From a virus, in the IMG/VR virus record IMGVR_UViG_3300048439_000064, positions 1-47,416 of that record: 47,416 nt of DNA; one strand, given 5' to 3'. Positions 34,566-43,747 of the stretch are shown in pieces. The translations under genes and the position numbers were made by a program. The notes under the pieces are model-generated. The model did not search any database and was not told where the DNA came from. It saw only the letters and a program-made list of their open reading frames with translations. The stretch's first letter is position 1. Each line of letters begins with the position of its first letter.

Positions 34566-34590
34566 AAAAATAAAAAGGGCCGAAGCCCTA
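34566..34590 (-). terminator. Intrinsic terminator with UUCG loop, leftward
   Basis: AGGGC-UUCG-GCCCU on the leftward RNA (34576-34589) followed by TTTTTATTTTT. It lies 10 nt beyond the stop of the gene at 34600. Confidence 0.82.
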
Positions 34591-34599
34591 AGATATTTA

Positions 34600-34776
34600 T
34601 TAACTTGAATAGTCTTCAAATAACTGGGCAAGGGCTATCTTCCCGTGATCGCTGTTTGAAAGATCTTTAATTAAATCTTCTATGCCTACGGTATAACCTT
34701 TCTGCTCGCCGAAATAATATCCCACACAATACGAAAGGCCGATTAAAGACAATACAAATATAAAATAAGCGTCCAT
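34600..34776 (-). CDS. Small early membrane protein
   Basis: 58 aa from ATG 34776 (GGAG 6 nt upstream). One membrane segment at the N-terminus (AYFIFVLSLIGLSYCVGYYFG) is followed by an acidic cytoplasmic helix (IEDLIKDLSNSDHGKIALAQLFED). The leader is shared with the gene at 34343. A terminator stands on each side (34566 and 34797). Confidence 0.7.
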   Translation of the reverse strand: MDAYFIFVLSLIGLSYCVGYYFGEQKGYTVGIEDLIKDLSNSDHGKIALAQLFEDYSS

Positions 34777-34796
34777 GTGTTTCTCCAAATTAAAAC

Positions 34797-34819
34797 AAAA
34801 AAAAGAGGCCGAAGCCTCT
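34797..34819 (-). terminator. Intrinsic terminator with UUCG loop, leftward
   Basis: AGAGGC-UUCG-GCCUCU on the leftward RNA (34804-34819) followed by eight Ts. It lies 14 nt beyond the stop of the 51-aa gene at 34833. Strong by eye. Confidence 0.88.
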
Positions 34820-34832
34820 CAAGTATTAACAA

Positions 34833-34988
34833 TTAAACATCTCTAAGGATTTCTTCAATAGGTCGCGTCTGCTCTTTAATTTCTTCAACGCTGGTGAAGC
34901 CGCACTCCAAGCTTCGTAAAAGTTCTTTATAAGATTCTATTACAGCCGCTTGCTTTCCAATAAGAACAAATAAGTCATAATTAGACAT
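34833..34988 (-). CDS. 51-aa early protein
   Basis: A short gene with AAAGGAAA upstream of ATG at 34988. It encodes MSNYDLFVLIGKQAAVIESY, then KELLRSLECGFTSVEEIKEQ and TRPIEEILRDV: a helical, acidic protein, perhaps coiled-coil. It is flanked by terminators at 35017 and 34797, and has no visible promoter of its own. Confidence 0.65.
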   Translation of the reverse strand: MSNYDLFVLIGKQAAVIESYKELLRSLECGFTSVEEIKEQTRPIEEILRDV

Positions 34989-35016
34989 AAATATTTCCTT
35001 TCAAAGAATAAGAATA

Positions 35017-35042
35017 AAAATAAAAGGGGGCGTTAACCCCCG
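35017..35042 (-). terminator. Intrinsic terminator, leftward
   Basis: GGGGG-UUAACG-CCCCC on the leftward RNA (35026-35041) followed by TTTTATTTTTATT. It ends just after the gene at 35050. Confidence 0.85.
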
Positions 35043-35049
35043 CAAGTCT

Positions 35050-35511
35050 TTAGATATCTTCAGCAATCGCTCGCTGGGCATCGACCATCGCCGTGACAAG
35101 CTTGGTGAGGTCGCTGATTTGCTTCTCAAGATCTTTGATCTTCTTCGTCTCAGCGGGTGCCGCCTTGGCCGCCTTAGTCTTAACAGGCGCTGAAGTCTTA
35201 GCGGCGGCTTGGCGATCCTTGGTGAAAGCATTGAAGCGGTTAAGATACTTTGTATCTACGTCCTCAAGCTTGCTCGCTGATAAGATCTTAGCGATGTCGC
35301 CGTGGGTGAGCTTCTTCGTCTTCGAAGATGAATCAGTCTTAAACATGGCGTACCAGACCTTGCCGGTGTTAAGCCCTTGGAGCGAGGCCATCTTTCCGGA
35401 TGCCGCATACATCTGCTTCGGAGAAGCCGCCTTGTTTTCGGGTATATCATTGAACAGCTCCGCTGTCTCAAGTGTACGATTCAATTCACCACCAACATTT
35501 CGTGTAGACAT
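35050..35511 (-). CDS. First early gene: hypothetical protein with linker and coiled coil
   Basis: 153 aa. Residues 1-95 are globular (ASPKQMYAASGKMASLQGL, then GKVWYAMFKTD and LTHGDIAKILSASKLEDVD). Residues 99-125 are an Ala/Lys/Pro linker and 125-150 are a coiled-coil helix (KIKDLEKQISDLTKLV), suggesting an oligomer. It has more GC-rich codons than its neighbours. As the first gene of the leftward block, it would be made earliest and could be a host-takeover or regulatory factor. No family is recognised. Confidence 0.75.
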   Translation of the reverse strand: MSTRNVGGELNRTLETAELFNDIPENKAASPKQMYAASGKMASLQGLNTGKVWYAMFKTDSSSKTKKLTHGDIAKILSASKLEDVDTKYLNRFNAFTKDRQAAAKTSAPVKTKAAKAAPAETKKIKDLEKQISDLTKLVTAMVDAQRAIAEDI

Positions 35512-35843
35512 AAAACTCTCCTAGAGTTATAGATAAAAACCAAAGCGACCGCCGCTTCAGCCCTTTCAAAGCTAAGGGTTTCGGTCCTCGGTGTCAATGT
35601 GAATTTTTCACAAACTTCCCCTTCCCTAAAGGGAAAAAAAGTTTCTCGGCGGCCTTCACTAGCAGTTTCTACTTAATGTTGTAAGTTACTGAGAGTGTTG
35701 GAGTTCTTTAGAGTTATTGTAATAATTTTGAAAGCCTTTGTATTCTCTTGCTGGCTGTCAACTTGAAAATTTCTGAAGGCTTTAAAATTCTTTAGAATTT
35801 CTGAAGGGGGGTTTCGGAGCTTCAAAGACTTTTAAAGTCTTCA

Positions 35844-35915
35844 ATGTGTGTGTGCGCCTGTGTAGGCGTGTGCATTATGCGTGTGTGCGTGTGCATGACG
35901 TGTGTGTCTGCAAGG
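35844..35915. repeat. GT-rich alternating purine-pyrimidine tract
   Basis: A run dominated by GTGTGT/GTGCGT units with small palindromes inside (CGCCT-GTGT-AGGCG at 35855-35868 and GCATTATGC at 35872-35880). Such tracts can adopt Z-DNA or unusual superhelical forms. The function is unknown. Confidence 0.75.
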
Positions 35916-36028
35916 GTACGCAGGTGGCCATACCCCCTCCCATATATATATACTCATGCTCAAACATTTTCCAAAGGTTCTAGAGTGTCTACCAGATAGG
36001 CCCACAGACCTTTAAAGCCCCAGATACT

Positions 36029-36049
36029 AAAAAAGGCCCACCGGCCTTT
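36029..36049 (-). terminator. Intrinsic terminator in the leader, leftward
   Basis: AAAGGCC-GGUG-GGCCUUU stem followed by UUUU on the leftward RNA. It is only about 85 nt after the start site of the master promoter, so most transcripts could stop here unless antitermination occurs. Confidence 0.72.
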
Positions 36050-36119
36050 AAAGAGTCCCACTGCAAGTGGGGAGGATATGTAGATATGTAGGATATATAT
36101 ATGTACCTCGGGGGGTACA
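36029..36119 (-). ncRNA. Candidate ~90-nt structured RNA or leader
   Basis: Starts at the expected start site of the consensus leftward promoter (36126-36154) and ends at an intrinsic terminator. It contains three hairpins in order: GUACC/GGUAC (36118-36103), CCCACU/AGUGGG (36071-36057) and AAAGGCC/GGCCUUU (36049-36032) with a U-run. A single-stranded CCUCCCC lies before the second stem. It could be a small RNA or an antitermination/attenuation leader. No homology is known to me. Confidence 0.55.
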
Positions 36120-36125
36120 AATGTT

Positions 36126-36154
36126 ATTATAAGGGTGTATGAGAGTTTTGTCAA
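36126..36154 (-). promoter_or_regulatory. Perfect consensus sigma70 promoter, leftward (early)
   Basis: TTGACA (36154-36149), 17-nt spacer, TATAAT (36131-36126): every hexamer base matches consensus. Start near 36119. It would be the main early promoter, read by unmodified host RNA polymerase on infection. Confidence 0.9.
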
Positions 36155-36187: not shown

Positions 36188-36216
36188 TTGACAAGACTTA
36201 TATATCTCCTTATACT
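36188..36216 (+). promoter_or_regulatory. Near-consensus sigma70 promoter, rightward
   Basis: TTGACA (36188-36193), 17-nt spacer, TATACT (36211-36216). Start is expected at about 36222-36224, on the ATG of the small terminase gene. It is back-to-back with the leftward promoter, 33 nt apart between the -35 boxes. Confidence 0.88.
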
Positions 36217-36223
36217 CTATAAC

Positions 36224-36631
36224 ATGGAAACTAAAAAAGAATTGACAACAAAACAACAAGATTTTTTAGACAATCTTATAGCTTGTGGTGGTGATGCCCG
36301 TCAAGCCGCAGAAGTAGCTGGTTATGCACCCGGAAGTTACACATCAGTTGTCAAAGCTCTTAAGTCAGAAATCTTAGATCTTACTGAAGGCGTGTTAGCC
36401 GTAAACGCCCCTAAAGCAGCCATGAAGCTCATTCAGGTCATGGACAGCGATGAGCCTATCCCACAGGCTAATATGCGACTACAGGCAGCACAGACGCTCC
36501 TAGACCGTGTTGGGATAGGTAAGAAAGAAAGATTAGATGTAAAAGTTGAAACACCAAGTGGATTATTTATTCTTCCTGCAAAAGCACCAACAATCATAGA
36601 AGACGCAGAATATGAAGAGACGTACGAGTAG
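36224..36631 (+). CDS. Small terminase-like protein (leaderless)
   Basis: 135 aa from ATG 36224; longer frames would begin upstream of the transcript start. N-terminal helix-turn-helix look: TTKQQDFLDNLIACGGDARQAAEVAGYAPGSY, followed by a helical centre (APKAAMKLIQVMDSDEPIPQ, LQAAQTLLDRVGIG). This resembles small terminase subunits, which bind the packaging site. It lies two genes before the large subunit. Predicted transcription start falls on the AUG, so translation would be leaderless. The role is strong by position and pattern but not proven. Confidence 0.75.
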   Translation: METKKELTTKQQDFLDNLIACGGDARQAAEVAGYAPGSYTSVVKALKSEILDLTEGVLAVNAPKAAMKLIQVMDSDEPIPQANMRLQAAQTLLDRVGIGKKERLDVKVETPSGLFILPAKAPTIIEDAEYEETYE

Positions 36632-36845
36632 TACAATTCCATTTGGTTATAAGTTAGTAGATTCAGATCCTGAACACATCGAAGAGATCACAAGCGAACT
36701 TGAAGCCTTAAACAAGATTCTACCGATGATTAAATCAAGATCTCTGTCTCTACGCGAAGGTGCATTGTGGTTGACCCATAAAACTGGTCGTTCTGTTTCA
36801 CATCAAGGATTACAAAAAATAATCAATAAATATGGAAAAGAATGA
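36612..36845 (+). CDS. Small HTH-like protein between terminase subunits
   Basis: 77 aa. IPFGYKLVDSDPEHIEEITSELEALNKI is followed by SLSLREGALWLTHKTGRSVSHQGLQKIINK, which looks like a helix-turn-helix; the IPFGY segment followed by helices recalls the DNA-binding parts of recombinases. It overlaps the gene before by 20 nt and the large terminase by 14 nt. It may help DNA recognition during packaging or be a regulator. Confidence 0.68.
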   Translation: MKRRTSSTIPFGYKLVDSDPEHIEEITSELEALNKILPMIKSRSLSLREGALWLTHKTGRSVSHQGLQKIINKYGKE

Positions 36846-38523
36846 TTGGGATATAAACCCACAAAACTACTCTACAAACGAAGATGGTTCTTTTGTTTTA
36901 AAGAAAGATGGTACACCCCGAAAGAAGGCTGGACGTTCCAAAGGATCTAAAGGCCGAGGATACAACTATCATTCAAAGACTAAAGCAAAACAAGAAGCAT
37001 CAAAGAGCGTAAGAGCAAAAAAGAGAAAGATAGCGAAGGCTCGCTCCGATATTTCACGATATCAAAAGTCTGTTGAGAAAACTGAAAAAGCCCTAGATCT
37101 ACTAGACGACAACACAAAAAAAACTGAGGGTCGTGTTGTTGAAGATACGTTTGTTGAAGAAGCAGTCCCGTCGCTTCAGGCCGAGTTGAAAGAAAGTGTT
37201 ATTTTTCAACCTAACGAAGGTCCACAGACAGACTTCTTGGCTGCAGGCGAAACAGATGTGTTATATGGCGGAGCGGCTGGTGGAGGTAAAAGTTATGCGA
37301 TGTTGGTTGACCCCCTTCGATTCGCACATCGGTCAGCACATAGAGCATTAATCCTTCGGCGTTCTATGCCAGAGTTGCGAGAACTCATCGACAAGTCTCG
37401 TGAACTCTACCCGAAAGCCTTCCCCGGATGTAAGTACCGTGAAGTAGAAAAGCTCTGGAACTTTCCAAGCGGTGCTAAGATAGAGTTTGGGTTCTTGGAG
37501 CGTGATGCAGATGTATATCGCTATCAAGGCCAAGCCTACAGCTGGATAGGGTTTGATGAGATAACGCATCTTCCCACAGAGTTTTCATGGAACTACTTAG
37601 CTTCACGGCTAAGAACAACTGATCCAGAAATAACGCCCTATATGCGTTGTACAGCTAACCCCGGTGGATCAGGTGCGTTGTGGGTTAAAAAGAGATACAT
37701 AAACCCGTCACCCTACAATGAATCTTTTATGGGCAATGACGGCATTACAAGAAAGTTTATTCCTGCTCGATTAAATGATAATCCATATCTGGCTGCTGAT
37801 GGTCGATATGAACAAATGCTAAAGAGCTTGCCGCCTACTCAACGCAGACAACTGCTTGAGGGTAACTGGGAAATCTCAGAAGGCGCAGCGTTTACAGAAT
37901 TTGATCGAGATGCACATGTCATTGAGCCTTTTGAAATCCCTCTTCACTGGGAACGTGTTAAAGGACTTGACTATGGTTACGCATCAGAATCAGCGTGTGT
38001 TTGGGCAGCAATAGACCCTAACGACGGAACGCTGATTGTTTATAGAGAGTTATATAGAAAGGGTCTTTTAGCTACAGAGTTAGCAGAAATGTTAACGAAT
38101 ATGGAACTAAGTGATCCAATGTCTGTCAGAGGCGTACTAGATACAGCGTGTTGGTCGCGAACAGGTACAACAGGCCCGACAGTAGCAGAAACATTAATTC
38201 AAGCAGGACACAAGCTTAGACCTGCAGATAAAAATCGCATAGCGGGTAAAATACAAATTCACGAACACCTTAAGTTACAAGATACTGGACGCCCTAGAAT
38301 GCAGATGTTTAATACATGTCCAAACTTAATTCGTGAATTACAAAGTATCCCTCTTGATAAAAATAATCCTGAAGATGTTAATACTCACGCTTCGGACCAC
38401 GCCTATGACGCACTACGCTACCTTATAATGTCGCGTCCAAGAATGAGTGATCCGTTAAGTCAAATACGATCTTTACATCGTAACCAACATTTTCAGCCAC
38501 TCGATTCAACATTCGGTTATTAA
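36832..38523 (+). CDS. Large terminase subunit
   Basis: 563 aa; the packaging motor. Residues 1-100 are a basic, Lys/Arg-rich extension. The ATPase has Walker A GGAAGGGKS (146-154) and Walker B WIGFDE (D242, E243). Coupling motif TANPGG is at 274-279. The nuclease (RNase H-like) has acidic residues D380 (KGLDYGY), D437 (VLDTACW) and D526 (HAYDALRY). It resembles Terminase_6-type large subunits common in marine phages. It needs the small subunit (36224) and portal (38527). The N-terminal extension is longer than usual. Confidence 0.93.
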   Translation: MEKNDWDINPQNYSTNEDGSFVLKKDGTPRKKAGRSKGSKGRGYNYHSKTKAKQEASKSVRAKKRKIAKARSDISRYQKSVEKTEKALDLLDDNTKKTEGRVVEDTFVEEAVPSLQAELKESVIFQPNEGPQTDFLAAGETDVLYGGAAGGGKSYAMLVDPLRFAHRSAHRALILRRSMPELRELIDKSRELYPKAFPGCKYREVEKLWNFPSGAKIEFGFLERDADVYRYQGQAYSWIGFDEITHLPTEFSWNYLASRLRTTDPEITPYMRCTANPGGSGALWVKKRYINPSPYNESFMGNDGITRKFIPARLNDNPYLAADGRYEQMLKSLPPTQRRQLLEGNWEISEGAAFTEFDRDAHVIEPFEIPLHWERVKGLDYGYASESACVWAAIDPNDGTLIVYRELYRKGLLATELAEMLTNMELSDPMSVRGVLDTACWSRTGTTGPTVAETLIQAGHKLRPADKNRIAGKIQIHEHLKLQDTGRPRMQMFNTCPNLIRELQSIPLDKNNPEDVNTHASDHAYDALRYLIMSRPRMSDPLSQIRSLHRNQHFQPLDSTFGY

Positions 38524-43719: not shown

Positions 43720-43747
43720 GGGGGATGAAATATTCCCCCTTTTCTTT
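43720..43747 (+). terminator. Intrinsic terminator after major capsid gene
   Basis: GGGGGA (43720-43725) and TCCCCC (43734-43739) form a stem with an 8-nt loop, followed by TTTTCTTT. It sits 9 nt after the capsid stop and before the next gene, and would reduce transcription of the tail genes relative to the capsid gene. Confidence 0.85.

Follow-up and report, generated by a model that had tools for sequence, protein, structure and literature searches.

The divergent region between the leftward genes and the terS/terL block of this phage probably contains, on balance, its main early promoter, followed by a leader with a hairpin at its 5' end; in the window clade a repeat-derived terminator would attenuate this leader some 90 nt in, and a likely replication origin lies alongside. 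Host sigma-70 RNA polymerase would initiate the leftward early transcript at an invariant consensus promoter, and the first bases of the RNA would fold into a small hairpin, whose most likely role is to protect or set the 5' end. In most relatives transcription would continue across a conserved origin-like block towards the early genes; in the window clade a terminator that may have arisen on a copy of a repeat would stop most transcripts at about 90 nt, so that attenuation would leave a short leader RNA, with the read-through supplying the early genes. Here, we infer the transcript ends, the protection of the 5' end, and the read-through ratio and its modulators from the DNA sequence.

The window (the whole stretch of 47,416 nt analysed here) is an IMG/VR record holding part of the genome of a relative of the HMO-2011-type marine phages. 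Among named phages, those nearest to it in DNA are the Pelagibacter phages HTVC115P, HTVC103P, and HTVC104P, followed by the HMO-2011-type roseophages. The leftward gene block runs from 35511 down on the minus strand, divergent from the rightward block with terS, the terminase small subunit gene (36224..36631, plus strand; its Pfam match falls under the cut-off), and terL (36832-38523, plus strand), and the promoter feature lies between the two. The first leftward gene (35050..35511, minus strand) encodes a 153-aa product without a Pfam or PHROG match. Directly ahead of it, at 35534-35600 on the minus strand, are the complementary segments GACCG...CGGTC and CCCTT...AAGGG, which among the aligned relatives only L003 shares. 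A bidirectional terminator-like hairpin is seen at 43720-43739, inside the rightward gene block. The fragmentary record gave no match to integrase (PF00589), for which the control was positive in 14/14, and none to phage-type RNA polymerase (PF00940), for which the control likewise gave none.

Relatives were taken as the best 80 loci from a terL search, 71 of which have DNA reaching the promoter site; L010, L032, L041, L043, L045, L048, L060, L067, and L079 were dropped because they possess too little upstream DNA. The loci L092-L145 were selected by a pattern that contained the promoter and part of the first hairpin, and they should therefore not be counted as independent evidence for either.

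The leftward promoter (36126..36154, minus strand) is a 12/12 match to TTGACA-N17-TATAAT, with TTGACA at 36154-36149 and TATAAT at 36131-36126, and is the sole perfect copy in the window. The initial annotation had described the promoter as perfect without naming its strand, and was also correct that GUACC starts 7 nt past the -10 and that the first gene lies some 600 nt further on, its ATG at 35511 being about 608 nt downstream of the RNA start region. A lone promoter site is weak evidence, since the window contains two sites with no more than one mismatch when 0.60 are expected per shuffle; the strong evidence is conservation. The identical 12/12 promoter is found on the same strand and in the same place, 636-727 nt upstream of terL, in 71/71 of the best 80 terL loci with enough upstream DNA and, with the window included, in 72/72 records, as one might expect of a sigma-70 early promoter. 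Near-identical records are present among these 72, which have 55 distinct downstream stretches and 49 distinct promoter spacers; the spacers diverge to a mean identity of 49%, so the hexamers themselves appear to be selected. Elsewhere in the loci of 50 relatives (532 kb) there are only two copies of the perfect promoter, and the minus strand of the window has no promoter scoring at least 9/12 from 36029 to the first ATG. The proposal that this promoter drives a leader is supported by its invariance in the 72 records, its orientation towards the leftward early genes, and the retention of a hairpin at +1; a leftward gene follows the leader and closes with its own terminator (35041-35026), in keeping with an early promoter. 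Not every phage of the wider group has this layout, since HMO-2011, CRP-1, CRP-2, CRP-13, CRP-345, CRP-603, and MW202701 have no early-side promoter of at least 11/12 in the stretch read. A blastn search of the region against phage records returned a single 44-nt match, which covers the promoter stretch, comes from an Enterococcus phage, and was taken as chance.

Back to back with this promoter is a rightward one, TTGACA-N17-TATACT (36188..36216, plus strand; 11/12), which was absent from the initial annotation. The opposing promoter scores 11 or 12 out of 12 in 72/72 records (best 80 terL loci and the window). The ATG of terS begins 8 nt beyond the end of its -10 in the window, and the same gap is 6-9 nt in 61 of the 72 records; at this distance the terS mRNA is predicted to be leaderless.

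The leftward transcript can fold from about +1 into a hairpin, HP1 (36102..36119, minus strand), with the sequence UGUACC-CCCCGA-GGUACA and a 6-bp stem (P 0.98). All three stems originally proposed were found on the minus strand, at 36119-36102, 36071-36057, and 36049-36032, with the U-run extending to 36029. The MFE fold of 36119-36025 has an energy of -27.5 kcal/mol (z -2.07), which 8 of 200 shuffles equalled. A hairpin of at least 5 bp is present in 48 of 53 distinct transcript starts, a partly pattern-selected set, and in 38 of 43 once the pattern-selected ones are removed. When the fold test was repeated without the 20 pattern-selected leaders of 74, the remaining 54 had a mean folding z of -1.93 (sem 0.15) at the start, whereas at ten offsets further on it ranged from -0.49 to +0.27; in all 74 distinct leaders, too, the peak is confined to the transcript start. 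The starts of L080 and HTVC115P fold poorly. The HP1 arms covary between clades (TGTACC/GGTACA, TATGTA/TACATA, TTATA/TATAA, and TAACG/CGTTA). Re-dealing the right halves equalled the observed covariation score in 6 of 1000 trials with the 53 distinct starts, relatedness retained, and in a separate run with 16 representatives that score was reached in 134 of 2000; we regard this covariation as suggestive only. The expectation that the pairing would be conserved in related phages thus holds for HP1, with weak covariation, and fails for the second hairpin and the terminator, which are confined to the closest clade, a limit absent from the initial annotation. HP1 may act through protection of the 5' end or the binding of a factor, and there may be a link to replication.

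Beyond HP1 there is an unstructured, pyrimidine-rich linker (36072..36101, minus strand), followed by HP2 (36057..36071, minus strand; CCCACU-UGC-AGUGGG, 6 bp) and an intrinsic terminator (36029..36049, minus strand; AAAGGCC-GGUG-GGCCUUUUUU) in which the 7-bp stem at 36049-36032 precedes the U-run and the hairpin by itself has -10.2 kcal/mol. HP2 and the terminator were found together in 12 records (the window, L003-L009, and L011-L014), and the terminator in 12 of 128 leaders, all belonging to the window clade. The terminator stretch 36034-36053 has 90% identity over 20 nt with a repeat at 35998-36017, the CTTTAAAGG copy with which the conserved block starts. Any intrinsic terminator within 300 nt was counted in 12 of 74 distinct leaders (a number that omits L003 because of a G-U pair in its stem), versus a mean of 1.2 in mononucleotide shuffles. 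Unrelated terminators are found at a similar place in L018 and HTVC115P, and farther on in L057. Since HP2 and the terminator are limited to the window clade and most leaders have no terminator, the discrete RNA of about 90 nt would be a trait of that clade.

Three other ideas about the leader were considered and rejected. A switch in which CCCACU pairs with GGUGGG, so that HP2 and the terminator act as an attenuator, is disfavoured without a factor, since the forced alternative fold reaches -17.2 versus -27.5 kcal/mol. A Rho-type C-rich linker is too unspecific an explanation: the spacer between hairpin and block averages 27% C and 14% G, with C exceeding G in 55 of 67 distinct leaders but at least twofold in only 34. 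A shared leader ORF was dismissed on the grounds that a 40-codon open frame from about +1 is present in 24 of 74 distinct leaders and absent from 50.

Two rival explanations concern the element itself. HP1 is a palindrome at +1, and the weak covariation might reflect paired changes in half-sites, as would be seen if HP1 worked at the start site as a DNA operator rather than as an RNA hairpin; we consider this unlikely, since equal TATGTA/TACATA half-sites are spaced 10 or 11 nt apart (13 in L047, with TACATG), no second copy of the palindrome with up to three mismatches occurs in the window or in 50 loci, and 32 of 53 HP1 folds contain G-U pairs. A single-copy palindrome with varying half-site spacing favours RNA over an operator. 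The initial annotation offered a phage small RNA as one of two readings, and noted an unpaired CCUCCCC that could pair with ribosome binding sites. A stand-alone regulatory RNA about 90 nt long that acts in trans, for instance on such sites, has in its favour the strong promoter and terminator of the 12 records and the different terminators at a similar place in L018 and HTVC115P; a small RNA of this length is predicted for the window itself and 11 close relatives. It does not extend to the 62 of 74 distinct leaders that are free of a terminator within 300 nt, and the CCUCCCC heptamer changes even inside the closest clade; a conserved small RNA, or one that pairs with ribosome binding sites, is therefore unsupported. 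Rfam gave no match at gathering score in the window, only sub-threshold ones from other kingdoms or at chance level, and taking both sides together we think a trans-acting RNA quite improbable.

The leader might instead serve antitermination, its 5' RNA recruiting a factor or modifying RNA polymerase so as to pass early terminators. Strict terminators on the leftward strand at 36047, 35561, 35041, 34820, and 34589 (34576-36049, about 1.5 kb) lie before and between small early genes; these five stand behind one consensus promoter (36.05-34.57 kb) and are among 8 on the minus and 1 on the plus strand window-wide, where shuffles give 0-1 per strand. L028, L029, L031, and L056 each have three terminators, and ahead of the last one no promoter reaches 11/12. 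With four further strict terminators following leftward, control of read-through is plausible but unproven. Among 35 relatives with leaders of 3539-4336 nt, read to at most 4200 nt, early-strand strict terminators number at least one in 19 and none in 16, so terminator-punctuated early genes, perhaps with antitermination, fit the window clade but not all relatives. Of 50 leaders, only 4 contain the boxA consensus GCTCTTTRA and 11 the shorter CTCTTTRA; a leader of the lambda nut or rrn boxA type was therefore rejected. The put RNA of phage HK022 possesses two adjacent stem-loops near its 5' end and, in cis and with no phage protein, lets RNA polymerase pass terminators. The window resembles it in that its early leader RNA has a hairpin close to the promoter, but the initial comparison with put-type elements does not carry further, as some 30 nt separate HP1 from HP2 and HP1 alone is conserved, HP2 being present only in the close clade. 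On this evidence we would give antitermination little credence. The lambda early and late leader RNAs and OOP RNA are short, terminated RNAs made from a strong host promoter near the replication region or the operon that they control. The window is like them in its strong promoter, its short terminated RNA, and its placement, but differs in having no recognised N, Q, nut, or qut element and in belonging to another phage group.

Within the untranslated leader (35512..36017, minus strand), which carries CTTTRAAG-type octamers, lies a conserved DNA block of about 105 bp (35910..36017, minus strand), arranged as CTTTAAAG / CTGGTNNACA / AAAATGT / TATATATA / G- or C-tract / CCACCTGC. The series from CTGGTNNACA to CCACCTGC, or a close variant, is present in 74/74 distinct leaders (a relaxed pattern was needed for L053 and L073), 59-215 nt after the predicted transcript start. 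The tract is G in 63 of these leaders and C in 11; this strand switch and the strand symmetry of CTTTRAAG suggest that the elements act as DNA, not RNA. The window has CTTTRAAG-type octamers at 36017-36010 and 35827-35820 and a third at 36053-36046. CTTTRAAG reaches densities of 4.6 and 4.0 per kb on the two leader strands, versus 0.30 and 0.33 outside, an enrichment of about 15-fold seen in 48 of 50 loci. AC/GT-rich alternating purine-pyrimidine repeats occupy 35844-35901 of the leader, and CRP-1 is also CA-rich after its block. An nhmmer profile from 67 blocks, which included those of the window, HTVC103P, and HTVC115P, gave 4.9e-24 for the window, 6.1e-6 for HTVC104P, and, outside the model, 3.4e-5 for CRP-1 and 0.009 for CRP-345. 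Scores were weak for HMO-2011 (0.063), CRP-603 (0.24), MW202701 (0.33), and CRP-2 (1), and the profile did not find HTVC033P or CRP-13.

Clustered short repeats and an AT-rich block in noncoding DNA form the arrangement of an iteron/DUE origin, and together with the change in GC skew they make the region look like a replication origin. One could then read the leftward RNA as an origin transcript: by passing through the AT-rich block, or opening it, it would prime or activate a CTTTRAAG-iteron-flanked origin. The constancy and position of the block, the strand behaviour and enrichment of its elements, and the change of sign of GC skew at the block region all point this way, as does the layout of T4 oriF and oriG, which according to PMC3016281 combine a promoter with a downstream unwinding element. 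The likeness lies in a promoter with an AT-rich element downstream; the T4 promoters are MotA-dependent middle promoters, unlike the full sigma-70 consensus and iteron-like repeats recognised here from sequence. Against an origin transcript, the terminator of the window clade precedes the block, in CRP-type phages and HMO-2011 block-like sequence occurs without a consensus promoter on the same side, GC skew also tracks gene direction, and the block is possibly a packaging site instead. Contig ends, judged by eye from the ranges of the best 80 terL loci, are not concentrated at any single position. We hold the origin transcript to be possible but doubtful, and retain the early promoter with its hairpin leader as the preferred reading.

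The HMO-2011-type phages and HTVC103P, HTVC104P, and HTVC115P resemble the window in their consensus promoters, block, and divergent region, the last of which is next to terS in the three HTVC phages; the CRP and HMO-2011 records differ in having no early-side consensus promoter. The element is not annotated in the database records of these phages that were examined. In the literature searched we found no published description of the region: the main text of PMC9038755 makes no mention of promoter, intergenic, terminal repeat, noncoding, circular, or RNA polymerase, and the portions of PMC6918029 and PMC12753301 consulted do not treat it.

The HMO-2011 type is described in PMC9038755 as a dominant and widely distributed marine phage group. 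In such a group, the back-to-back promoters could form a bidirectional master switch, with a leaderless terS mRNA on one side and, on the other, a hairpin-capped RNA aimed through (here stopped short of) an iteron-type origin opened by host transcription, a picture that we offer as speculative and rather unlikely as a whole. More immediately, the region supplies coordinates for a probable main early promoter, a likely origin, and a predicted leaderless terS mRNA.
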